Shown: in pieces, positions 16,020 to 35,081 of the stretch | Layout: every line of letters begins with the position of its first letter | Numbering within the stretch: the stretch's first letter is position 1 | Program-made: the position numbers and the translations under genes | Origin: Halorubrum amylolyticum | Lineage (GTDB): Archaea > Halobacteriota > Halobacteria > Halobacteriales > Haloferacaceae | Assembly (NCBI RefSeq): GCF_004114995.1 | Contig: NZ_SDJP01000002.1 | Coordinates: 136,457 to 200,456 of the forward strand | DNA length: 64,000 bases | Reading direction: 5' to 3' | The notes under the pieces: generated by a model | Told to the model about the DNA's origin: nothing | Seen by the model: the letters and a program-made list of their open reading frames with translations, nothing else | Databases searched by the model: none

Positions 16020-16679
16020 TCACCTCGCGTCCTCGACCCGGATCGAGCGGGCGATCTCCGCCGGGAGGCTCTGCTCGCCGGTCGGCGTCGTCACGGTCAC
16101 CATCCCGAACGGGGCGACGTCGACGACTTCCATCTCGGTGCCGGGCGTGATTCCGGCGTCGGCGAGGTACTCCAGCTCGTCCTCGTCGCGGTCGGAGACG
16201 CGGGCGACGACCACGCGGTCGCCCTCCTCGCGGTCCGCGAGCCGCGCGCCGCTGCCCTCGTCGACCGGTTCGAGGTCCGCGCTCGGGATCGGGTCGCCGT
16301 GGGGGTCGACGGCGGGATCGCCGAGCGCCTCCGCCACGCGGCGCTCGAACGCCTCGGAGATGTGGTGTTCCAAGGCGTCGGCCTCCTCGTGGACCTCGCT
16401 CCAGTCGTAGTCGAGCCGCTCCGCGAGAAACGCTTCCAGCAGTCGGTGGTGGCGGACGATCTCCAGGGCGACCACCTCGCCCTCCGCCGTCAGCTCCGCG
16501 CCGCGGTACGGCTCGCGCTCGACGAGCCCGCGCTCCTCCAGCTTGCCCAGCATGTCGGTGACCGACGGGGAGGTCTTGTCGAGGTACTCCGCGATCGCGG
16601 ATGTCGAGACGGGAGGCTCCCGCTCGGACTGGAGGACGTAGATCGCCTTCAGGTAGTCCTCCATCACGTCGCTCAGCAT
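16020..16679 (-). CDS. DtxR/MntR-family metal-dependent transcriptional regulator (full length with SH3-like domain)
   Basis: 219 residues in three domains: winged helix (1-65, MEDYLKAIYVLQ start region, STSAIAEYLDKTSPSVTDML), dimerisation/metal domain (66-140, with RHHRLLEAFL and EADALEHHIS containing candidate metal ligands), and a C-terminal FeoA/SH3-like domain (150-217). Family role: Fe or Mn sensor repressing metal uptake. Met1 and Met6 are both possible starts. A TTATAA sequence lies directly before Met1, which would favour the later start if it is the TATA box. No TTAGG-N4-CCTAA operator is near it, unlike the short DtxR at 34.6 kb, so the two may read different sites. Confidence 0.9.
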   Translation of the reverse strand: MLSDVMEDYLKAIYVLQSEREPPVSTSAIAEYLDKTSPSVTDMLGKLEERGLVEREPYRGAELTAEGEVVALEIVRHHRLLEAFLAERLDYDWSEVHEEADALEHHISEAFERRVAEALGDPAVDPHGDPIPSADLEPVDEGSGARLADREEGDRVVVARVSDRDEDELEYLADAGITPGTEMEVVDVAPFGMVTVTTPTGEQSLPAEIARSIRVEDAR

Positions 16680-24976: not shown

Positions 24977-25834
24977 TCACTCCTCTAGGCTCGGGTGCGT
25001 CTCCTGCGGGTCCGGGTGCGGCGCCGCGAACCGCTCCCGGATCGCCTCGCGGGACTCCTCCTCGCGCTCGCGGCGCTCGCCGTCGCCGATCTCCTCGCAG
25101 CCCGGCGGCACCTGCCGGCCGCGGTCGGTGAAGTACCCCTCGGGCGCGACCCAGTCGTGGTAGAACCCGCGGTCGTCCGCCTCCAGTATCGTCACGCCGA
25201 CCTCGGCCCCGTGGCCCGCGCACACCGCCGCCTGATGCGGCTTCTCCGCGAGCCGGCCGGCCGCGTACAGCCCGTCGACGCCGGTCCGCCCGCGCTCGTC
25301 GGTGTCGACGTACGACTTCCCCCGGTCGAGGATGCCGATCCCGTCGACGTCCGCGAGGTAGCCGACCTCGTTCTTCGTCGCCGCGACGACGTACCGAGTC
25401 CGGATCGCGTCGCCGCGGCTGTTCGCGTCGCCGTGGTCGTTCGCGTCGCCGCGGTCGACTTCGACGACGAACCGGATGTCGTCTCCCGGATCGGGGCCGT
25501 CCGCGTCACCGGAGCCGACGGCCGAGACGCGCGTCGCTCGGGCGTCGAGCCGGTCGGCCCCCGCGTCCCCGGCCTGTTCGCCGAGGAGATCGAGTAACTG
25601 CCGGGCGTTGACGCCCAGCGGGAAGCCGGGGAAGTTCTCCAAGTGCGCGTTCCGTCGGAGGAGCGACTCGCCCGGGTCGATGACGAGCGTGTCGAGCCCC
25701 TGCCGGGCCGTGAACACGGCCGCCGAGAGGCCGCCGACGACGACCACGTCACGGGGGCCGTTCGGGTCGCTGTCCGCGTGCGGGTCGCGGTCCGCACCCG
25801 CTTCGCCCCTCGCGGGCGCCTCGTCCCCGCTCAT
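24977..25834 (-). CDS. Thioredoxin-reductase-like flavoprotein with shortened FAD-binding loop
   Basis: 285 residues. The fold resembles thioredoxin-reductase-type FAD/NAD(P) oxidoreductases: AHLENFPGFPLGV (about 62-74) is the FAD-contact motif, and TGVDGLYAAGRLAEKPHQA (about 187-205) is the C-terminal ATG/FAD motif. The N-terminal Rossmann loop reads DVVVVGGLSAAVFTA (29-43). The usual GGGPAGLSAA lacks four residues (GPAG), as if 12 bp were deleted. No redox CxxC is present. It is the last member of an iron-regulated operon (start overlaps the preceding ORF by ATGA). Its homologue in the other iron operon keeps the full loop. It may reduce or release iron from siderophore, if FAD still binds. 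Confidence 0.8.
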   Translation of the reverse strand: MSGDEAPARGEAGADRDPHADSDPNGPRDVVVVGGLSAAVFTARQGLDTLVIDPGESLLRRNAHLENFPGFPLGVNARQLLDLLGEQAGDAGADRLDARATRVSAVGSGDADGPDPGDDIRFVVEVDRGDANDHGDANSRGDAIRTRYVVAATKNEVGYLADVDGIGILDRGKSYVDTDERGRTGVDGLYAAGRLAEKPHQAAVCAGHGAEVGVTILEADDRGFYHDWVAPEGYFTDRGRQVPPGCEEIGDGERREREEESREAIRERFAAPHPDPQETHPSLEE

Positions 25835-26156: not shown

Positions 26157-27533
26157 CTACGGCTCCCCGTTGATCGCGTCCGCGACGCGCTGGCGGTCGA
26201 ACAGCCGCTCGGGCTCGGGGATCTCCGGGTACGGCCCCTCGTCGTACGTCGGCCACTCGCCGAAGGCGTCGGGGTACAGCTGCTTGGCGGTCATCTCCAG
26301 CTGGAAGAGGTTCAAGATCGGCCCCTGATACCGGGCGCCCTGCGGGTGGACCCGCTCGTTCCGGACCGCCGTGATCTCCGAGGCGACCGGATCGCCCTCC
26401 AGCGTCGACCGGACCTCGGCCATGCTCGTGCCGGGCTGCATCCCGCCGAGGAAGAGGATCACGTCGGGGTCGGCCTCGAGCAGCCGCTCGAAGTCGACCG
26501 TCGCGCCGGACTCGACGGACCCGTCGAAGGCGGGGTTCGGCGCGAGCGGGCGCGCGTGCGAGGTGAGGAACCCCGGGTTGTCAAGCGCGTAGGCGTACAC
26601 CGTCTCCATGTCGCCGGAGGCGATCAACGCCGCGTTCGGCCGCTCCGACTCGGGCGGGAGCCGCTCGTCGATCGCCGCGAGCAGCTCCTCGCGGACCGCC
26701 GCGAGCGCCTCGTACCGCGCCCGCTCGCCGAACGCGTCGGCGACGCGCCCGAACTGCTCCCACAGCTCGTAGTACTCGTAGCCGTCGGCCCACTCCGCGG
26801 CGGGCTCCTGATGGCGATCGCTGAGAGAGTTGCCGAACCACGGCGAGACGTTCTCGGCGATCTCGTCGACGTCGGACCGGTCCCACCCCTCGACCTGCGT
26901 CACCCACGCCGGGTCCGCGAGGTGAATGTCGCTGTCGAGCTCGTACAGCGTCTCCTTGTCCGGCCCCCACGAGGAGTAGAGCCCCGACCAGTCGAGCGAC
27001 ACGCCCGGCAGGCGCGCGACGAACTGGTTCCAGAGCGCGTCGTAGTAGTCCGGCGCGTGCATCGCCGTGACCCCGTCGCCGCGGCCGAGCGCGAGCGCCA
27101 TGTCCGCGTGGTGCGTGAGCCGCGTGAATACCGTCTCCGGCGGCGCCTCGAAGGTCACCTCGCCGACCGGCGAGATCGACGCCGTGTAACTCCCCGTTCC
27201 GTCGCCGCTTCCGTCGCTCCCCTCTTCATCGGCGGCCTCCCGGCCGCTCTCCTCCGAGGCGGGGGACTCGGCCGAACCGCCGGACTCGGTGCCGTCCTCC
27301 GGTGATTCCGCGGAGGAAGCGCCGCCGAGACAGCCGGCGAGTGCCCCGCCGCCGATCGCGGCGCCCGCGCACGCCAGGTAGCCGCGACGGGTCGGTCCCG
27401 ACGTCGCGTCGGTCGCGTCGGCTGCGTCGATCGCATCGGTCGCGTCGGCCGTGTCGGCTGCGTCGATCGCATCGGTCGCGTCGGCCGTGTCGGCTGCGTC
27501 GATCGCATCGGTCGCGTCGGCCGCGTCGCTCAC
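26157..27533 (-). CDS. Iron-siderophore ABC transporter substrate-binding lipoprotein (with repeated N-terminus)
   Basis: 458 residues from a GTG start that overlaps the upstream stop by 4 bp. The first 43 residues are three 12-residue repeats of the type DAADTADATDAI. The Tat/lipobox signal follows: RRGYLACAGAA and LAGCLGG, so it is exported folded and lipid-anchored. An acidic Ser/Glu linker and a helical-backbone binding domain of the FecB/FhuD type come next. The C-terminus has EMTAKQLYPDAFGEW and PERLFDRQRVADAING, shared with the other two binding proteins here. It has no permease of its own in this operon and probably delivers to the permease at 29.8 kb (inference). Confidence 0.88.
   Translation of the reverse strand: MSDAADATDAIDAADTADATDAIDAADTADATDAIDAADATDATSGPTRRGYLACAGAAIGGGALAGCLGGASSAESPEDGTESGGSAESPASEESGREAADEEGSDGSGDGTGSYTASISPVGEVTFEAPPETVFTRLTHHADMALALGRGDGVTAMHAPDYYDALWNQFVARLPGVSLDWSGLYSSWGPDKETLYELDSDIHLADPAWVTQVEGWDRSDVDEIAENVSPWFGNSLSDRHQEPAAEWADGYEYYELWEQFGRVADAFGERARYEALAAVREELLAAIDERLPPESERPNAALIASGDMETVYAYALDNPGFLTSHARPLAPNPAFDGSVESGATVDFERLLEADPDVILFLGGMQPGTSMAEVRSTLEGDPVASEITAVRNERVHPQGARYQGPILNLFQLEMTAKQLYPDAFGEWPTYDEGPYPEIPEPERLFDRQRVADAINGEP
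27421..27528. repeat. Three tandem 36-bp repeats inside the binding-protein gene
   Basis: Three head-to-tail copies of a 36-bp unit (27421-27456, 27457-27492, 27493-27528). The first two are identical and the last differs by one base. Each codes in frame for 12 residues of Asp/Ala/Thr, ahead of the Tat signal. Copy-number change would alter only the length of the pre-signal segment. Confidence 0.95.
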
Positions 27534-28792
27534 GCTTCGAACTCCCCGTTGACGATGTCCGCGACGGCCTGTCGGTCGAACAGCCGTTCGTCGCTCGTTA
27601 CGGCGCCGAACTCCTCGGGATACAGCTGTTGTGCCGCCCGTTCGGTCAGGAAGAGGTTGTGGATCGGCCCTTGGTGGAGGTAGCCGCCGCGGTACACGCG
27701 GCCGTTCCGGACGGCCGTGAGTTCGCCGCCGACGGAGTGGTCCTCCATGTACGCGAGGACGGTGTCTCGGAACTCCGCCGGCGACTTGCGCTCGTGGCCT
27801 CGGACGAGGATCACGTCCGGGTCGATCGACAGCAGGTTCTCGTAGTCGAGCTCGCCGCGGTTGGTGCTGCTCAGGTTCTCGATGTCCGTTCCGGCGAGCG
27901 CGTCGACCGCGCCCAGATCGAGCCACTGCTTCTTGCTCGTCCCCTTGTCGACCAGCCGGTACGGCGAGAAGGTCTCCGGTTCGTCGGTCCCTTCGAAGGT
28001 GAGGAACACGTTCGGCCGCTCGTCCGCCGGGGGGAGGCGCGCCTGCACGTCCGCGACGAACTCGTCGTGAAGCTCGGCGAACGCCTCGTACCGCTCGCGC
28101 TCTTGGAAGACCTCGGCGACCTTCTCGAAGGCCTCGTACAGCGTGTAGTAACGGTAGTCGTGCCACCCGTCGGAGCGCCGGAAGATCAGGTTCCCGAGGA
28201 ACGGTGCCACGTTGTCCCGTATCTCTGCGACGTCGTCGTCCCCCCAGTCGAACCAGTTGACGAGCATCTGGGGATCGTACAGGTGGAGGTCGGCGTCGAG
28301 TTCGTAGAACTCCTCTTTCGTCCTGACCTCCGGGTGCGACTCGATCGCGTCGCGGTCGACGTCGACGCCCGGGAGCTCGTCGTACACCTCCCGGTAGTAC
28401 CGGCTGGCGTTGCCGACGCCGGCCAGCCCGCCGCCGCGTCCGAGCGCGACCGCCATGTCCGCGAAGCCGCCGTCGGACGCGACCCAGCGCTCCGGGACCG
28501 TCTCGAAGCGAACCTCCCCGGCGGGCGCCATCGTGACGGCGTACGGACTCCCGTCGGGCCCGTCGGATGCGTCCCCGCCGCTGGAGGCGTCCCCCCCGTC
28601 GCTCCCCTCGCCCGTCGTCGACGCGGCCTGCGAGCCGTTCCCGGCTCCGTCGGTTCCCCCGCCGTTTCCGGTGCAGCCGGCGAGCAGTCCCCCGCCGACG
28701 ACCGCGCCCGCGTGTGCCACGTACTCCCGTCGCGTCCGCCGAGGTGCGGTCTCGCCGTTCCACCGCCGGGATGCGGTCTCGTCCTTCGACAT
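27530..28792 (-). CDS. Iron-siderophore ABC transporter substrate-binding lipoprotein
   Basis: 420 residues from ATG giving MSKDETASRRW, 4 bp from operator A; an ATG 5 codons upstream would lie inside the operator and is rejected. The Tat signal is RRTRREYVAHAG and the lipobox is LLAGCTG (Cys about 43). An acidic Ser/Gly/Asp linker precedes a FecB/FhuD-type domain. The end DERLFDRQAVADIVNGEF matches the other two binding proteins. The stop overlaps the next gene start by GTGA. It is first in an operon with another binding protein, a 58-aa protein and a flavoprotein, controlled by two operators 36 bp apart. Confidence 0.9.
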   Translation of the reverse strand: MSKDETASRRWNGETAPRRTRREYVAHAGAVVGGGLLAGCTGNGGGTDGAGNGSQAASTTGEGSDGGDASSGGDASDGPDGSPYAVTMAPAGEVRFETVPERWVASDGGFADMAVALGRGGGLAGVGNASRYYREVYDELPGVDVDRDAIESHPEVRTKEEFYELDADLHLYDPQMLVNWFDWGDDDVAEIRDNVAPFLGNLIFRRSDGWHDYRYYTLYEAFEKVAEVFQERERYEAFAELHDEFVADVQARLPPADERPNVFLTFEGTDEPETFSPYRLVDKGTSKKQWLDLGAVDALAGTDIENLSSTNRGELDYENLLSIDPDVILVRGHERKSPAEFRDTVLAYMEDHSVGGELTAVRNGRVYRGGYLHQGPIHNLFLTERAAQQLYPEEFGAVTSDERLFDRQAVADIVNGEFEA

Positions 28793-28796
28793 ATAT

Positions 28797-28812
28797 TTTA
28801 GGCTCACCTAAA
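28797..28812. promoter_or_regulatory. DtxR/IdeR-type operator A
   Basis: TTTAGGCTCACCTAAA, a 6-bp inverted repeat around 4 bp. It lies 4 bp upstream of the ATG of the binding-protein gene, where RNA polymerase starts on a leaderless transcript. A bound repressor would block it. Confidence 0.85.
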
Positions 28813-28832
28813 AGAACATAACCGTTCCGATC

Positions 28833-28848
28833 TTTAGGCCAACCTAAA
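28833..28848. promoter_or_regulatory. DtxR/IdeR-type operator B
   Basis: TTTAGGCCAACCTAAA, spaced exactly 36 bp from operator A. The interval holds the putative core promoter (TTATG on the minus strand), so the pair brackets it. Confidence 0.85.
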
Positions 28849-28894
28849 ACACTCGGTGATCCGGCGGTACCGTACGCGCCGGAGCGTCCGGTGG

Positions 28895-29806
28895 CTACTC
28901 GGCGCCCTCGTGTCGCGCGCGGAGGGGGGTGACGCGCGGTCCGTTCTCGGTCTGCACCACGTCGGCGTCGACGCGGAACACGTCCGCGAGCAGGTCCTCG
29001 GTGACGACCTCCTCGGGCGCGCCGCGGGCGCGGATCTCCCCGTCCTTGAGCGCGACCATCCGATCGGCGAGCCGGGCGGCCTGCTCGATGTCGTGGAGCA
29101 CGACGACGACGGTCACGTCGCTCTCGTCGCGCAGGGTCTCGATGATCTCCATCACCTCCATCTGGTGGTGCATGTCGAGGAACGTCGTCGGCTCGTCCAA
29201 CAGGAGCACGTCGGTGTCCTGCGCTAACACCAGTGCGATCCACGCCAGCTGTTTCTGCCCGCCGCTGAGGCTCCCGACCTCGCGGTCGCGCAGGTGGCCG
29301 CAGCCGGCCAGCTCGAGCGCGTCCTCGACCGCGATAGCGTCCTCGTCGGTCGTCCGCTCGAAGAACCCGCGGTGGGGGTACCGACCGTGGTACACCAGAT
29401 CCTCGACCGTGATGCTGTTCGGCGAGGTGCTCTCCTGCGAGAGCAGCCCGATCTTCCGGGCGAGCGCCTTCGTGTCCATCGCGTGCACGTCGCCGCCGTC
29501 GACCAGCACGGAGCCGTCCTCCGGCGCGAGCTGCGTCGCCAACCCCTTCAGCAGGGTGCTCTTCCCCGAGCCGTTCGGGCCGACGAGGGCCGTGACCGCG
29601 CCGGGCTCGGCCGCGATCGACTCGCCGTCGATGACGGGCTCCGGGGCGTCCGGATACCCCAGTACGAGCTCCTCGCCGTCGAGGTTGCTCGCGTCCGTCG
29701 CGGCCGACTCGTCCGGAGTTTCCACCGCCGAGGCGTCCGCGCCGTTCGATCCGTCCGGTCCGTCCGTCGCGTCGATCTGTGTCGTGTCCGCGTTTTCCGT
29801 TGACAT
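28895..29806 (-). CDS. Iron-siderophore ABC transporter ATP-binding protein (FecE/FhuC type)
   Basis: 303 residues. After an acidic 45-residue leader come Walker A GPNGSGKSTL (about 75-84), the Q-loop IGLLSQES, the signature LSGGQKQLAWIALVLAQD, Walker B VLLLDEPTTFLD and the H-loop VLHDIEQAARLA. LARKIGLL and HGRYPHRGFF are characteristic of the FecE/FhuC group for iron-siderophore, heme or B12 import. It acts at the cytoplasmic face and energises the permease encoded just upstream, whose stop is adjacent to its start. It is the last gene of the second iron operon and the only such ATPase in the window. Confidence 0.93.
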   Translation of the reverse strand: MSTENADTTQIDATDGPDGSNGADASAVETPDESAATDASNLDGEELVLGYPDAPEPVIDGESIAAEPGAVTALVGPNGSGKSTLLKGLATQLAPEDGSVLVDGGDVHAMDTKALARKIGLLSQESTSPNSITVEDLVYHGRYPHRGFFERTTDEDAIAVEDALELAGCGHLRDREVGSLSGGQKQLAWIALVLAQDTDVLLLDEPTTFLDMHHQMEVMEIIETLRDESDVTVVVVLHDIEQAARLADRMVALKDGEIRARGAPEEVVTEDLLADVFRVDADVVQTENGPRVTPLRARHEGAE

Positions 29807-30979
29807 TCAGAGTTCACCCATGTTCTGCTGCCGCCGCATCAGGTACAGGAAGTACGGGCCGCCGATCAGCCCGGTGACGATACCGACCGGGATCTGCGCG
29901 TCGGCGCCCGTGATCACGCCCATCCCGAGGCGCGCGCCCACGTCGGCCGCGACCATCAGCGCCGGCCCGACGAACAGGCAGCCGACGATCACCCGCTTGT
30001 AGTCGCTGCCGACGAGGTTCCGCACCATGTGGGGGACGATGAGTCCCACGAAGCTGACGATGCCCGCGACCGCAATGCTGGCGGCGGCCGCCAGCACGGC
30101 GACGCCGGAGAGCGCGAACCGAACCCTCTCGATCGACATCCCCAGCGACTTCGCCGTCTGCTCGCCGAGGAGGAGGAGATTCAGCTGGCGCGACCCCGCG
30201 AGCGACAGCACCACTGCCACGACCGTCCACGGCAGCGCCATCCGCACCTGCTCCCAGTCGGTGCTGGTCAGCGACCCCGTCGTCCACTGGATCGCCGACT
30301 GGACGACGCCGATGTCGTCCGCGAAGAAGAACAGCCCCGTCTGGAGGCTGTTGAAGACGGTCCCGACGATCACGCCCGCGAGCACGAGTCGGACCGGGCT
30401 CGTCCCGTTCTTCCACGCGATCGCGTAGACGATCAGGAACGCGACCGCGCCGCCGAGCGCCGCGATCAGCGGGAGGAACGCCGAGAGTCCCCCGAACACC
30501 ACGAGCGTCAGCAGGATCATCAGCCCCGCGCCGGAGGAGACGCCGAGGATGAACGGGCTCGCCAGCTCGTTTCTGGTGACCGCCTGGAAGATGGCCCCCG
30601 AGATGCCGAGGTTCATCCCGACGATGGCGGCGACGAACACCCGCGGGAGCCGGATGTTCCAGACGATGAGCGTCCCGTGCGCCAGCTCGGGCAGCTCCCC
30701 CTGAAAGCCCGTGATCGAGCGCATCAGTCCCTCGCCGACGAGGAAGTTCAGCAGCCAGCGCGGGTCGAGGAGGACCGCGGGGTCGAGGACGGCGCGCCAC
30801 GCCTCCCCGACCGTCATCGAGTACGCGCCGAAGCTCACCTGCACGAGCCCGCCGGCGACGACGACCGCGACGCTCGCGAACGCGACCGTGATCAGCTTGG
30901 GATCGAACAGCCAGCCGATCCGCCCCTCCGTCGGCCGGCGCGCCGCGTCTCCCCCGGCGACCGACCCCCCGCCGCTCAT
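29807..30979 (-). CDS. Iron-siderophore ABC transporter permease (FecCD family)
   Basis: 390 residues from ATG overlapping the upstream flavoprotein stop (ATGA). About nine or ten transmembrane helices are visible. FecCD/BtuC markers are NIRLPRVFVAAIVGMNLGISGAIFQ (contacts and helices around 110-135), ASPFILGVSSGAGL and SFVGLIVPHMVRNLVGSDYKR, the last containing the loop that meets the ATPase. It forms the channel (normally a homodimer) for ferric-siderophore uptake. It shares an operon with one binding protein and probably serves the other two binding proteins as well (inference). Confidence 0.93.
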   Translation of the reverse strand: MSGGGSVAGGDAARRPTEGRIGWLFDPKLITVAFASVAVVVAGGLVQVSFGAYSMTVGEAWRAVLDPAVLLDPRWLLNFLVGEGLMRSITGFQGELPELAHGTLIVWNIRLPRVFVAAIVGMNLGISGAIFQAVTRNELASPFILGVSSGAGLMILLTLVVFGGLSAFLPLIAALGGAVAFLIVYAIAWKNGTSPVRLVLAGVIVGTVFNSLQTGLFFFADDIGVVQSAIQWTTGSLTSTDWEQVRMALPWTVVAVVLSLAGSRQLNLLLLGEQTAKSLGMSIERVRFALSGVAVLAAAASIAVAGIVSFVGLIVPHMVRNLVGSDYKRVIVGCLFVGPALMVAADVGARLGMGVITGADAQIPVGIVTGLIGGPYFLYLMRRQQNMGEL

Positions 30980-31989
30980 CGTGCCTCCTCCGCGTACGCG
31001 GCGACGTCCTCGTCGTCCATCGCGTCGAGCAGCGCCTCGGCGCCGTGAGCGTCGACAAGGGCGTCGGGGTCGAGGTGGTCGGCGAGCGCGCGCCGCCCCT
31101 CGGACGCCCGCGCCTCGGCCTCGTCGGCGTCGACGTACGCCGACAGCGCGGCGTCGATCGCCGCCTCGCGGACCCGGGCGAACCGCTCCGCGTCCGGATC
31201 GACGGGGGCGTCGGCGTGGCGCTCGTCGAACCACTCGACCCACCGATCGCGGTCCGCCCACTCCTCCTCGCGCTCGGCCTCGCGGCGCACCCAGTCGACG
31301 CCCTCGGCCGCCGCGGGCCACCAGCCGTCCGCGATCCGGGCGTCCGTCACGACTCGCCGGGCCACGCGGGCGCCGCGCCCGGCCGCCGTGATCGCCTGCT
31401 GGGCGGCCTCGGAGGGCGAGGCGACGTAGAGCCCGTCGACCGGCGTCGTCCCGTCGGGGTCGGCGTACTCCCGGTCGAAATGCTCGTGCGTCTCGCCGCC
31501 GTGGTCGTGGGCCTCGAACATCGCCGCGTCGTCGTCGAGCCCGCGGAGGTACTCGCCGTCGTACCGGGTCGCCGCGACCACGCGGCGGGCGGTGACCGGC
31601 TCGCCCTCCTGCGGGGTGACGCGGAAGCGCGTCTCCGCCGCGTCGTCACCGCGCTGCTCGCCGGACTCGATCGGGTCGACCGACTCGATCAGGTCGTCGA
31701 CGAGTTCGCCGCCCGCGCGCTCGACGTGATCGTGGATGAGGCCGTAGACGGTCTCGACGTCGAGCCCGGCCGGAAATCCGAGGTAGTTGCCGAGGTGCGC
31801 GCATCGCGCGATCGACGACCGACCCCGGTCGAACACGGCCACCTCGACCCCCTCGCGGGCGAGGAAGACGGCGGCCGAGCAGCCGGCGGGGCCGCCGCCG
31901 ACCACGACCGCGTCGTAGTCGACGTCGGCGGCCTCGTCGCGGTCGATCTCGTTGCGGTCGGTGTCGTCCCGGTCTCTCCCGTCGCTCAT
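30976..31989 (-). CDS. NAD(P)/FAD-dependent oxidoreductase, thioredoxin-reductase-like
   Basis: 337 residues. The FAD loop is complete, AVVVGGGPAGCSAAVFLA (about 27-44). LGNYLGFPAGLD (about 68-79) is the NYxGFP-type FAD contact, and TPVDGLYVASPSEAAQQA is the late flavin motif. There is no CxxC, so it is not a classic thioredoxin reductase. The C-terminal 110 residues, acidic and helical, extend beyond the usual family length. It overlaps both neighbours (ATGA) in the operon of binding protein, permease and ATPase. A role in reducing imported ferric siderophore is inferred from context. It is a paralogue of the gene at 24977. Confidence 0.85.
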   Translation of the reverse strand: MSDGRDRDDTDRNEIDRDEAADVDYDAVVVGGGPAGCSAAVFLAREGVEVAVFDRGRSSIARCAHLGNYLGFPAGLDVETVYGLIHDHVERAGGELVDDLIESVDPIESGEQRGDDAAETRFRVTPQEGEPVTARRVVAATRYDGEYLRGLDDDAAMFEAHDHGGETHEHFDREYADPDGTTPVDGLYVASPSEAAQQAITAAGRGARVARRVVTDARIADGWWPAAAEGVDWVRREAEREEEWADRDRWVEWFDERHADAPVDPDAERFARVREAAIDAALSAYVDADEAEARASEGRRALADHLDPDALVDAHGAEALLDAMDDEDVAAYAEEAR

Positions 31990-33269
31990 TCCGAATCACC
32001 GGCGACGATCGCCGCGACCCGGTCGCGATCGAAGAGCCGCTCGGACTCCGGGATCTCGGGGTAGCCGTCGCCGAGTTCGTAGGCCGGCCACTCGCCGAAC
32101 CGCTCGGGGAACAGCTGTTTGGCGGTCATTTCGATCTGGAAGAGGTTCATGATCGGCCCCTGTACCGGGTCCCCCGAGGGGTAGAACCGGTCGTTCTCGA
32201 TCGCGGAGAGCTCGCCGGCGACGGGGTGATCGGCGAGCTCCTCGCGGATGCCGGCCACGTCGTAGTAGGACTCGATCCCGTACTGGTGGTGGATGACGTC
32301 GGGGTCGATCTCCAGCAGCTGTTCGTGATCGTAGGCGGTCTCGTAGCTCACGCCGTCGGCGCCGAACGCGTCGGGCACCCCGAAGGGGCGCACGTGGGCG
32401 TTTGCGAACCCCGGGTCGTCGATCCGCGAGGGGTAGTGGGTCCCGTCCATGTAGAGGAGCGTGCCGACCGTCGGGCGCTCCTCCGCCGGCGGGAGGTCCG
32501 CCTGCACCGTCTCGATCAGGTCGTCGTGGACCGTCGAGAGCGCCTCGAAGCGCTCTTCTTCCCGGAACACGCCGGCGACGCGCTCGGTGATCTCCCAGAG
32601 GGTGTGGTACTCGTAGCCGTCGCGACACGACTCCGGCGGCTCGGAGTTCCGGCGGCTGAGCACGTTGCCGAACCACGGACCGACGTTGTCGCGGATCTCC
32701 GCCACGTCGCCCTCGTCCCACCCCTCGAAGGAGACGAACAGACAGGGGTCGGCGAGGTGGAGGTCGGAGTCGAGCTCGTAGAGCAGCTCCCGGTCGACCG
32801 TGATCCCGTCGCCGGAGCCCGTGTTGAGCTGCCGGACTCCCTCTCTGTCGAAGGCGACGCCGTCGAGTTCGGCGTAGTAAGCGTCGAGCGTGTTCCCGCC
32901 GGCGTCCGCGTCGAAGCCGAGCGAGTTCACCGCGTCGCCGTGGCCGAACGCGACCGCCATGTCCGCGTACAGCAGGCTGTAGACCATCACGTCCTCGGGG
33001 ACCGAGTCGAAGGTCACCTCGCCGACCGGCGCCATCTCGACGGAGTAGGAGTCCGTGGACCCGTCGCCTCCGTCCGACCCCTCATCGGAGCCGTCCGACC
33101 CGCCGGCGTCACCACCGTCAGATCCGTCGGCGCCGTCGGAGCCAGCAGAGCCGGATTCGCCCGAACCGCCTCCGAGACAGCCCGCGAGCAGTCCCGCCCC
33201 CGCGACCGCGCCGCCGTACCTGATCACGTTCCGGCGCGTCGGAGGGGTTCGGTCCGCGTCCTTTTCCAT
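31986..33269 (-). CDS. Iron-siderophore ABC transporter substrate-binding lipoprotein (first gene of second operon)
   Basis: 427 residues. The Tat signal is RRNVIRYGG and the lipobox is LLAGCLGG. A long Ser/Gly/Asp linker (about 35-70) precedes the binding domain. The end PESERLFDRDRVAAIVAGD and EMTAKQLFPERFGEW match the other two binding proteins. The stop overlaps the flavoprotein start by ATGA. The start is the ATG 5 bp from operator C. It probably captures ferric siderophore outside the membrane and delivers it to the permease encoded in the same operon. Confidence 0.92.
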   Translation of the reverse strand: MEKDADRTPPTRRNVIRYGGAVAGAGLLAGCLGGGSGESGSAGSDGADGSDGGDAGGSDGSDEGSDGGDGSTDSYSVEMAPVGEVTFDSVPEDVMVYSLLYADMAVAFGHGDAVNSLGFDADAGGNTLDAYYAELDGVAFDREGVRQLNTGSGDGITVDRELLYELDSDLHLADPCLFVSFEGWDEGDVAEIRDNVGPWFGNVLSRRNSEPPESCRDGYEYHTLWEITERVAGVFREEERFEALSTVHDDLIETVQADLPPAEERPTVGTLLYMDGTHYPSRIDDPGFANAHVRPFGVPDAFGADGVSYETAYDHEQLLEIDPDVIHHQYGIESYYDVAGIREELADHPVAGELSAIENDRFYPSGDPVQGPIMNLFQIEMTAKQLFPERFGEWPAYELGDGYPEIPESERLFDRDRVAAIVAGDSE

Positions 33270-33274
33270 ATTGA

Positions 33275-33288
33275 TTAGGCCTCCCTAA
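33275..33288. promoter_or_regulatory. DtxR/IdeR-type operator C
   Basis: TTAGGCCTCCCTAA lies 5 bp upstream of the ATG of the binding protein gene at 33269. A weak TATA-like TTTAATTC lies just behind it on the minus strand. Confidence 0.8.
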
Positions 33289-33310
33289 AGAATTAAATCG
33301 CTTTCGAATC

Positions 33311-33324
33311 TTAGGTGGGCCTAA
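33311..33324. promoter_or_regulatory. DtxR/IdeR-type operator D
   Basis: TTAGGTGGGCCTAA begins exactly 36 bp from the start of operator C, the same spacing as operators A and B. Confidence 0.8.
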
Positions 33325-33416
33325 ATCGAGAGGTTGCGCCCATCTCGCGCGTTCCTCCCCCGAGTGTCGACCGACCGACGAAATATAATATACTCTATAT
33401 AAATAGAAGATTCAAC

Positions 33417-33428
33417 GCCCACGTGGGC
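33417..33428. promoter_or_regulatory. Perfect 12-bp palindrome upstream of dpsA
   Basis: GCCCACGTGGGC, a perfect inverted repeat in otherwise AT-rich DNA, 94 bp upstream of the dpsA start. It is a possible operator for dpsA or for the divergent iron operon. Near it, TTTTAGG at 33451-33457 is a half-site of the iron operator. Confidence 0.4.
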
Positions 33429-33486
33429 TCTGTTACCGGTGTGGTAGAGTTTTAGGTCGTACGAAAAAATGTTTTTACATTGATAA

Positions 33487-33494
33487 CTTATAAG
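33487..33494 (+). promoter_or_regulatory. TATA box of dpsA
   Basis: CTTATAAG centred about 31 bp upstream of the dpsA ATG, giving a predicted transcript start only a few bases before the start codon. Confidence 0.55.
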
Positions 33495-33521
33495 TAGGTA
33501 GAGGGCGTACGAGTTAGTGTT

Positions 33522-34067
33522 ATGAGCACGCAAAAGGAGACTCGGCAGCGCGCCGACACCGTCGAAGAGAACGCTCTCAGGCTCGAACCCGAGAAGGCGG
33601 AACAGATCATCGAGGCGCTGAACGTCGACCTCGCGGACGCGTACGTCCTCTACCACCAGCTCCACAAACACCACTGGAACGTCGAGGGCGCGGAGTTCCT
33701 GGACATCCACGTGTTCCTCCAAGAGGTGTACGAGGACGTCGAGGCGGCCGCCGACGAGCTCGCCGAACGGCTGCAGGCGCTCGGCGGCGTGCCGCACGCC
33801 AGCATGACGACGCTCGCGGAGAACGCCACCGTCGAGCCGGAAGACGAGGACGTCTACGATATCCGCACGTCGCTCGCGAACGATCTGGAGATGATGGGCG
33901 ACATCATCGAGAGCTATCGGCAACACATCGAACTCGCGGAGGGGCTCGGCGACTACGCGACCGCGGAGATGCTCCGCGAGCAGCTGGAGGACATCGAAGA
34001 GCACGCGCACCACATCGAACACTACCTCGAGGACGACACGCTCGTGACCGAGTCCGCGACGAACTGA
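33522..34067 (+). CDS. dpsA: DpsA, ferritin-like iron-storage and DNA-protection protein
   Basis: 181 residues. The Dps/ferritin fold is evident: helix with YVLYHQLHKHHWNVEG (about 41-57), then FLDIHVFLQEVYEDVEAAAD (about 59-78), which carry the His and Asp/Glu ligands of the inter-subunit ferroxidase site (HKHHWNV and D-x-x-x-E patterns). The closing helices (110-165) are rich in Glu and His. It stores iron as ferric mineral and protects DNA from oxidative damage. It is divergent from the siderophore operon, so the intergenic operators C and D and the 12-bp palindrome may also affect it. Length is typical of haloarchaeal DpsA. Confidence 0.95.
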   Translation: MSTQKETRQRADTVEENALRLEPEKAEQIIEALNVDLADAYVLYHQLHKHHWNVEGAEFLDIHVFLQEVYEDVEAAADELAERLQALGGVPHASMTTLAENATVEPEDEDVYDIRTSLANDLEMMGDIIESYRQHIELAEGLGDYATAEMLREQLEDIEEHAHHIEHYLEDDTLVTESATN

Positions 34068-34080
34068 CGGAGAAACGGCT

Positions 34081-34085
34081 GCTTT
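34081..34085 (+). terminator. T-tract after dpsA
   Basis: TTTTT between the convergent ends of dpsA and the amphi-Trp gene, 14 bp after the dpsA stop. It fits an archaeal U-rich terminator for dpsA. No stem-loop is obvious. Confidence 0.35.
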
Positions 34086-34400
34086 TTACCGAACGTCCGG
34101 CGCTGTTTGATCGGTCCGCCCCGGCAGTTCGAGCTCTATCTCGAGTTCCGGCTCCCCGACTCCTTCGAAGTCGATCTCGAGCTCCACGGGCTCGCCGAAC
34201 GCGAACGGTAGCTCCCACTCGTCGGCCTCGATCCGAAGCTCGTCGCCGTCGCGCAGCTGTTCGCCGAGCGCGATCAGGAACTCGCCGGCCTCGCTCGCGT
34301 CGAGTCGGTACTCCTGTTCGAAGTTCCGACCCGCGATCACCGTCCGGCCGTCGTCAGCGGCGGACGACGGTGCCTCGTCCGAAGCTGATTCGTCCGTCAT
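34086..34400 (-). CDS. Amphi-Trp domain protein, 104 aa
   Basis: 104 residues. The N-terminal 22 are acidic. The remaining part fits the amphi-Trp domain: FEQEYRLDASEAGEFLIALG (about 28-47), then alternating beta-strands with paired hydrophobic/charged residues (EWELPFAFGEPVELEIDF). Function is not established for this domain. Its start is 1 bp past the stop of a 55-aa CxxC protein gene, and the pair is preceded by operator E, so it is probably iron-repressed. That link between an amphi-Trp protein and iron is an inference from the operator. Confidence 0.78.
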   Translation of the reverse strand: MTDESASDEAPSSAADDGRTVIAGRNFEQEYRLDASEAGEFLIALGEQLRDGDELRIEADEWELPFAFGEPVELEIDFEGVGEPELEIELELPGRTDQTAPDVR

Positions 34401-34401
34401 C

Positions 34402-34569
34402 TCACCGAGTCACGTCGACGACGTGGTCGCTCGCGATCCACCCGTCCGTATTCTCGGATTCCATGAACACCGATCGGCCGGGACATCCCTCACAGACGGT
34501 GACAGCCGGGATCTGTTCGGATTCCGATTCGCGACGAGAGTCGGTGCGAGACCGAGCGCCTGCGGACAT
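34402..34569 (-). CDS. Small CxxC protein, 55 aa, iron-regulated
   Basis: 55 residues from ATG giving MSAGARSRTDSR. A CEGCPGRSVF element (Cys near residues 27 and 30) is followed by NTDGWIASDHVVD. One CxxC pair could make a zinc site if it dimerises, or contact iron-sulfur (not shown). Operator E ends its upstream region, 8 bp from the ATG. The gene is too short for routine gene callers but has a good operon context with the amphi-Trp gene. Confidence 0.68.
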   Translation of the reverse strand: MSAGARSRTDSRRESESEQIPAVTVCEGCPGRSVFMESENTDGWIASDHVVDVTR

Positions 34570-34577
34570 TACGTGTC

Positions 34578-34593
34578 TTTAGGTGGACCTAAA
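34578..34593. promoter_or_regulatory. DtxR/IdeR-type operator E
   Basis: TTTAGGTGGACCTAAA, perfect 6-bp arms, 8 bp upstream of the 55-aa gene's ATG. Confidence 0.82.
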
Positions 34594-34621
34594 ACAAAAA
34601 GGATGCGATCGACGGCGACGG

Positions 34622-35062
34622 TCATTCCGTGCGTGTCGGTGAGACGCCGAGGTCGTCGGGACGGGTCTCGGTATCGACGTCGATGTCTTCGAACAGCAGG
34701 TGGGCGAGCCGTTCGGCGACCGCGGGACTGACCAGCCCGGCCATCTCCATCGCCTCGCGCTCGTGCGCGTCGAGGTCGAGCACGTCGCGGAAGAACCACG
34801 ACAGCGCGACGTACGTCTCGTGGAGCTCGTCCGCGCGCGCTCGGCCGGCGTCGGTGAGCGTCGCCCCCTCGTACGGTTCCCGAGCGACGAGCCCGTCGGC
34901 CGCAAGCCGCTGGAGCATCTCCGTCGTCGCCGCCGGAGAGCGGTCGAGCATCTCGGCGATCCGTCCGGGCGAGATCGGCGGCGACGCTCGGTGTTCCGCG
35001 ATGTACAGCGCGAGAAGGTACCGGGCCGTCCGCGTGGACCCCGGTTCGCCGACGTGCGCCAT
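34622..35062 (-). CDS. Short DtxR-family metal-dependent repressor, no SH3 domain
   Basis: 146 residues from ATG giving MAHVGEPGSTRTARY, 3 bp from operator F. The winged helix (about 12-70) includes ISPGRIAEMLDRSPAATTEM. The dimerisation domain (about 75-135) has FRDVLDLDAHEREAMEMAG with candidate metal ligands. It lacks the C-terminal FeoA/SH3 domain seen in the 219-aa homologue at 16.0 kb. An operator at its own start implies self-repression. The five other operators within 7 kb make it the likely regulator of both siderophore operons and the amphi-Trp operon. Family knowledge: Fe(II)-loaded DtxR/IdeR binds TTAGG-type palindromes. Confidence 0.88.
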   Translation of the reverse strand: MAHVGEPGSTRTARYLLALYIAEHRASPPISPGRIAEMLDRSPAATTEMLQRLAADGLVAREPYEGATLTDAGRARADELHETYVALSWFFRDVLDLDAHEREAMEMAGLVSPAVAERLAHLLFEDIDVDTETRPDDLGVSPTRTE

Positions 35063-35065
35063 GGT

Positions 35066-35081
35066 TTTAGGCCACCCTAAA
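35066..35081. promoter_or_regulatory. DtxR/IdeR-type operator F
   Basis: TTTAGGCCACCCTAAA, extendable to 7-bp arms, 3 bp upstream of the repressor's ATG. A TATA-like sequence (TTATATTTT on the minus strand) lies just upstream. It is in position to occlude a leaderless start. Confidence 0.85.

Follow-up and report, generated by a model that had tools for sequence, protein, structure and literature searches.

Haloarchaeal DtxR-type operators at iron-uptake-like genes form a class-wide system whose most likely main reader is TroR rather than the local DtxR-like protein

The 64-kb stretch of the Halorubrum amylolyticum genome analyzed here (contig NZ_SDJP01000002.1, positions 136,457 to 200,456; hereafter the window) carries two iron-uptake-like operons, an operon for a 55-amino-acid (aa) DUF7331-like protein and an amphi-Trp domain protein, a gene for a short DtxR-like protein of 146 aa and a Dps gene. 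The first four of these units are preceded by a 14-bp palindrome, TTAGG-N4-CCTAA, of which the window holds exactly six copies (Table 1); a search allowing one mismatch found no further copies in the window, and 100 dinucleotide shuffles of it gave none. An original prediction made from the letters alone had named this gene content and these six copies, with none elsewhere in the window, and both statements are borne out. Its coordinates of 33275 and 33311 are exact, while the other four are each 1 too low; it rightly placed four sites before ATG codons, with gaps that are 5, 5, 9 and 4 bp rather than “3 to 8.” Its interpretation was a compact six-site iron regulon under one candidate regulator, the short DtxR-like protein. 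As argued below, the sites are genuine and extend further than noted, the system is ordinary in kind, and it is the assignment of the regulator that needs correction.

Table 1. Operators, promoters and genes of the window (positions counted from its first letter)
Feature	Position	Strand	Basis or remark
Proximal operator, pair 1	28798..28811	.	Exact motif; ends 5 bp before ATG at 28792 (-)
Core promoter, pair 1	28812..28833	-	BRE-like CGGAAC, then TATA-like TTATGT, read in gene direction; sequence, 30-pair consensus
Distal operator, pair 1	28834..28847	.	Exact motif
Periplasmic-binding-protein-like, substrate-binding lipoprotein-like gene	27530..28792	-	Pfam PF01497
Proximal operator, pair 2	33275..33288	.	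Exact motif; ends 5 bp before ATG at 33269 (-)
Core promoter, pair 2	33289..33310	-	CGAAAG and TTTAAT in gene direction; sequence
Distal operator, pair 2	33311..33324	.	Exact motif
Second substrate-binding-like protein	31986..33269	-	Not matched by Pfam itself; at the same places, relatives of the PF01497 gene align at 39-41% (SBP420 query)
FAD-binding oxidoreductase	30976..31989	-	Pfam
FecCD permease	29807..30979	-	Pfam
ABC transporter ATPase	28895..29806	-	Pfam
Single operator	34579..34592	.	Exact motif; ends 9 bp before ATG at 34569 (-)
55-aa DUF7331-like protein	34402..34569	-	25.9 bits, just under the Pfam cut-off of 27; neighbour of the regulator at 26 of 57 loci
Amphi-Trp domain protein	34086..34400	-	TIGR04354 above cut-off
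Single operator	35067..35080	.	Exact motif; ends 4 bp before ATG at 35062 (-)
146-aa DtxR-fold protein, Idr-type (D4)	34622..35062	-	PF01325, 43.2 bits; model, fold match, ligand columns
Dps/ferritin-like protein	33522..34067	+	Pfam Ferritin; without an exact operator
219-aa SirR-type DtxR protein (D1)	16020..16679	-	All seven ligand columns filled; alternative reader

A genome-wide search, which the original prediction had proposed as its check, extends the set well beyond a compact group of six. The host assembly (3.63 Mb in 75 contigs, cited as C with a number) holds 18 exact sites, 12 of them beyond the window, against a single match to the reversed pattern. With one mismatch allowed the count is 23 against 27 for the control pattern, so near-miss sites are rare. 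Of the five one-mismatch sites, three belong to 36-bp pairs: C6:4508 is partnered by the exact site C6:4472, whereas C23:87371 and C23:87407 partner each other and front a further PF01497 protein. Collapsing of pairs reduces the 18 exact sites to 16 promoters, nine of which leave 4-9 bp between the operator and the start codon. Seven promoters, two of them in the window, front genes of ATP-binding cassette (ABC) importers: PF01497 proteins at C12:56966 and C12:209835, a solute-binding protein at C37:2640, an ABC ATPase 52 bp away at C12:46740, and a permease 119 bp off at C3:4504, where a gluconate-2-dehydrogenase-subunit-like gene is nearer. Three front regulators, namely the local DtxR-like protein, an HVO_A0261/FilR1-type protein (C12:210862) and an HTH_10 protein (C15:27197). 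One (C6:4472) fronts a DUF5059-plastocyanin protein and another the DUF7331/amphi-Trp operon, and the sixteenth (C15:45612) has no clear target gene assigned. Read from this gene content, the window sites are part of a predicted iron regulon of a known haloarchaeal kind that spans the genome and the class.

The paired sites have a constrained geometry. All four pairs seen in the host genome, including the two in the window, are spaced by 36 bp, as are 45 of 57 distinct pairs, with 54 falling within 34-37 bp and the remainder at 26, 55 and 56 bp. The 22-bp interior of the 30 oriented 36-bp pairs shows a CGAAA-like and then a TTTA-like element in the direction of the gene, resembling the B recognition element (BRE) and the TATA element, respectively. 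By patterns picked after the sequences had been viewed, both elements are present in 19 of the 30 in the gene direction, in two when reversed and in 0.12 when shuffled. The start codon follows 4-5 bp past the proximal operator in 29 of the 38 pairs (out of 57) that could be oriented. Paired operators thus bracket a predicted BRE/TATA core promoter, which would most simply set their spacing. We also considered strict helical phasing of the two sites and rejected it, as the 34-37-bp spread and the intervening BRE/TATA elements appear to fit core-promoter geometry better. A small group of closer pairs, 27-29 bp apart and without an obvious TATA between them, occurs in G229 and G131 (41-bp matches) and G288 (43-bp match).

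Across the class, the motif is present in all 292 genomes, with 3502 sites against 322 for the reversed control, and the tandem pattern in 189, against none for the control. In contrast, the clade of the local regulator is matched in 106 of the 292, at a cut of E 1.7e-23 or better that excludes a partial match in G188 (3.5e-22) and counts G164 and G122, whose clade genes each have one in-frame stop. Pairs occur in 89 of the 106 genomes with the clade and in 100 of the 186 without it. Ten pair loci from clade-free genomes (the first ten after L037, out of 30 pair loci) front six PF01497 genes, one DUF5059 gene and three genes for class-III aminotransferases, which we take to be siderophore synthesis genes. 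As both the motif and the paired operators are kept in genomes that lack the clade, the operator system does not need the local regulator.

The local protein itself is a member of the DtxR family by predicted fold. PF01325, the N-terminal winged helix of iron-dependent repressors, matches it above the cut-off of 26 bits, and PF02742, the metal-binding/dimerisation domain, at 20.7 bits against a cut-off of 27; fold matches span residues 5-131 of its AlphaFold model. This model (predicted local distance difference test score 84.4, predicted template modelling score 0.74) superposes on DtxR with a Z of 14.9 over 118 residues at 2.1 A (VIA-align), and its best Foldseek match is 1ddn (E 2.5e-5). 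The original prediction was right in seeing a DtxR-family gene that starts just behind an operator. The model was built on a 44-sequence alignment of the window protein and 43 of 57 clade loci in named records; L171 was omitted for an in-frame stop, L169, L174, L176, L179, L180, L190 and L191 were dropped unchecked with it, and L141, L173, L185 and L192-L194 are also not included. The Fe(II) sensing that had been predicted for this protein fares less well. Among the seven ligand columns compared, three correspond to the DtxR ligands Glu83, His98 and His106. Met10, His79, Cys102 and Glu105 are named as DtxR metal ligands in PMC10317159. Across these columns, most of the 44 members of the local clade have Q/R/E, Y, S, E, M, A and G, a second alignment and that of HMMER agreeing at the Cys102, Glu105 and His106 columns, and the canonical primary and ancillary ligands of DtxR were not found. 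With the ligand columns lost, direct Fe(II) sensing at the known sites appears unlikely, and a role as metal sensor is doubtful.

The clade is nonetheless closely accompanied by the motif, which lies nearby in all 30 clade loci searched and 156-222 bp upstream of the recognition-helix codon in 12 of the 28 that could be parsed (all except L077 and L094). In the 57 loci from named records it occurs within 4 kb in 51, with 114 motifs in 468 kb against none for the control; L175, L176, L184, L187, L193 and L194, the last two being weak bacterial matches, have none in that range. These loci also share neighbours, with DUF7331-like genes in 26, amphi-Trp genes in 23 and Dps genes in 28. Moreover, genomes with the clade have a median of 16 sites, against 9 in those without (Mann-Whitney 6e-22, relatedness ignored), a difference that persists within genus, family and order strata. 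Taken with the operator 4 bp before its own ATG, these associations favor a compact regulon of six sites with the local protein as its sole repressor, one that senses iron and regulates its own gene. We nevertheless regard that explanation as improbable, given the far wider distribution of the motif than of the clade, the 18 sites in the host genome, the paired operators at uptake genes of clade-free genomes and the lost ligand columns; as the single candidate regulator, the local protein was rejected.

Other paralogues therefore come into view, at the expense of the prediction's “one candidate regulator.” The host genome has ten PF01325 matches, of which five were taken as DtxR-like by reading them. 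A TroR-type protein encoded on contig C17 is matched in 290 of the 292 class genomes, seven of these matches (G001, G007, G016, G021, G133, G218 and G286) being much weaker, at E 1e-32 to 1e-46, and less sure as orthologues, and the three-domain SirR-type protein at 16.0 kb of the window is present in all 79 genomes sampled. Published locus tags equate HVO_0863 with TroR, HVO_0819 with SirR and HVO_0538 with Idr (PMC11349517), and a primer flanking HVO_0863 has been published (PMC6801745). With up to two mismatches allowed, the forward primer lies 547-550 bp from the match of the C17 orthologue in all eight genomes that hold it, among 15 genomes of a genus taken from the primer to be Haloferax; this one primer identifies the C17 protein as the HVO_0863 orthologue. 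In the presumed Haloferax genomes, the distance to TroR is 40-42 kb for the SirR-type orthologue (three genomes) and 329-361 kb for the Idr-type orthologue (four), both as the locus tags predict, and the position of the latter, along with DUF7331-like and Dps neighbours, identifies the local protein as the Idr orthologue. At locus L134, genes for a DUF7331-like protein of 55 aa and for Dps are joined by three exact motifs, including a 36-bp pair. TroR is said, in work by Martinez-Pastor from 2024, to be the primary iron regulator of Haloferax volcanii and to repress idr, which would suit the operator ahead of the local gene better than autoregulation.

TroR (n = 21) keeps two acidic ligands, its residues at the seven columns being Q, Y, E, R, R, E and S/A/P. 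Four cysteines (in YC, CPxC and DxC) are invariant in all 21 TroR sequences, each from a different genome (L136, 1980-2420, -, contig C17; orthologues L195-L214), and TroR may sense through a site other than that of DtxR. SirR, on the other hand, has D, H, E, H, D, E and H at the seven columns, and with its presence in every genome sampled it could be taken as the main reader of the operators. Yet the aspartates that it has in the columns of Met10 and Cys102 are reminiscent of the MntR pattern (PMC10317159), its best NCBIfam model is MntR, though below cut-off, and no exact operator lies within 12 kb of its gene; SirR as main reader accordingly seems to us quite unlikely.

We consider it likely that, as a whole, these data reflect a class-wide iron regulon with bracketed promoters, for which TroR would most likely be the main reader and Idr an accessory. 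The 14-bp palindrome would be a DtxR-family operator, probably for one dimer. At paired sites, the distal copy abuts the predicted BRE and the proximal copy lies between the TATA element and a start codon usually 4-5 bp on, from which a presumably leaderless transcript would be read. When iron is plentiful, the repressor on the operators would keep TBP/TFB and RNA polymerase from the promoter, and uptake would be switched on once it is released; we infer both the binding and this direction of regulation. The main reader would most likely be the class-wide TroR orthologue on contig C17, with the local Idr orthologue, itself behind an operator, as an accessory layer tied to the uptake, DUF7331 and Dps genes. 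The operator at the start of the idr-type gene may accordingly reflect cross-regulation by TroR rather than autoregulation. In a sub-case of this explanation, both proteins bind, and Idr tunes or relieves TroR at the promoters of the island. The residues S-P-A-x-x-x-E of the recognition helix, common to both in the alignment, and the link of the clade to the motif and to higher site counts speak for such co-binding, but the helix pattern is partly common to other paralogues and nothing separates the sites by reader; we rate it as plausible, at somewhat less than an even chance. A bolder proposal, which we hold only tentatively and think rather unlikely, is that iron control has moved off the DtxR metal site. 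TroR would then sense iron or an iron-sulfur cluster via its four cysteines, of which that of YC belongs to the dimerisation helix and those of CPxC and DxC to a short tail, and Idr would be a metal-blind modulator with the DtxR fold, both acting on one-dimer operators that bracket the BRE/TATA of leaderless promoters. The missing ligands make iron sensing by haloarchaeal DtxR proteins a question for point mutations. A partial literature search turned up no description that we recognised of the pair geometry or the TroR cysteines, and we claim neither as unpublished.

Several observations weigh against a TroR-read, class-wide iron regulon. SirR is as widespread as TroR, and distribution alone thus does not choose between them. 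The reverse HVO_0863 primer was not found. Autoregulation of TroR through the exact motif had to be rejected, with no motif near its own gene in any of 30 and 21 loci. The higher site counts of genomes with the local clade imply that the local regulator may read sites too, and G252 has this clade and 10 sites with no TroR match at the cut used. The reversed control equals or exceeds the motif count in five of the 292 genomes, the exact pair is absent from 103, and the clade locus of Halobacterium salinarum (L187) has no exact motif within 4 kb. Finally, three host promoters (C3:2283, C37:3868 and C37:5154) have glycosyl/lipid enzymes behind them.

The claim of DtxR-type operators before iron-uptake-like genes is upheld. 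Two dimers bind to the actinobacterial DtxR/IdeR box, TTAGGTTAGSCTAACCTAA, which in repressed genes overlaps the start or -10 region (PMC10317159). TTAGG-N4-CCTAA equals the first 14 bp of this 19-bp box when its S is C, and none of the 18 genome sites, read by eye, is followed by CCTAA as in the box; as the first part of a two-dimer box, the haloarchaeal site would probably bind one dimer. The likeness to actinobacterial DtxR/IdeR comprises the TTAGG/CCTAA half-sites and the same predicted fold of the local protein, whereas the overlapping second half of the site, the SH3-like domain and the ligands are missing. MntR, a two-domain member of the family, is similar to the local protein in size and fold (Z 14.7, 123 residues, 2.5 A) and provides its best NCBIfam models, though far below cut-off, but the ligand columns of the local protein are neither MntR-like nor DtxR-like. 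A further parallel is the Idr/SirR/TroR network of Halobacterium salinarum and Haloferax volcanii (PMC11349517), whose three regulators match by sequence and, in the presumed Haloferax genomes, by gene distances; the host genome differs in having at least two further DtxR-like proteins. In the abstract of the 2024 work by Martinez-Pastor, the distance from the Haloferax motif to the start codon downstream is reportedly about 100 nt, in contrast to 4-9 bp for most operators analyzed here. The operator can be searched for in any haloarchaeal genome, where it points to an iron regulon that includes small proteins such as DUF7331 and amphi-Trp, and the bracketed geometry offers a simple model of archaeal repression at leaderless promoters.

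Downstream of pair 1, the window holds another substrate-binding-like protein with weak NCBIfam matches and an uncertain start codon (24977-25834 and 26157 to ~27443, both -, hold it and the next open reading frame), as well as an open reading frame that reads like a second FAD (flavin adenine dinucleotide) oxidoreductase; the operon may therefore be longer than the pair 1 gene alone. Elsewhere in the host genome, a glycosyltransferase, an RGP-family protein and an LPG_synthase_TM protein lie near the operators L016 2283 and L023 3868 and 5154, possibly an iron-linked set of envelope genes. DUF5059 proteins are found behind the operators both in the host (L017 3965-1494, -) and in an unrelated genome without the local regulator (L041 1555-3048, +), which suggests an iron-related role for DUF5059. 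The operator L022 4113 lies in a region with multicopper-oxidase-like and cupin proteins, about 5 kb from D5 (G000:C15:40443), a DtxR-like protein with cysteines near its C-terminus. As to the local clade, G207, from the genus of the host, has several copies of it and 28 motif sites, and a record titled as a Salinivenus MAG (metagenome-assembled genome; L170) encodes a clade member next to DUF7331, amphi-Trp and Dps genes and contains two motifs, representing either mis-binned haloarchaeal DNA or a transfer.

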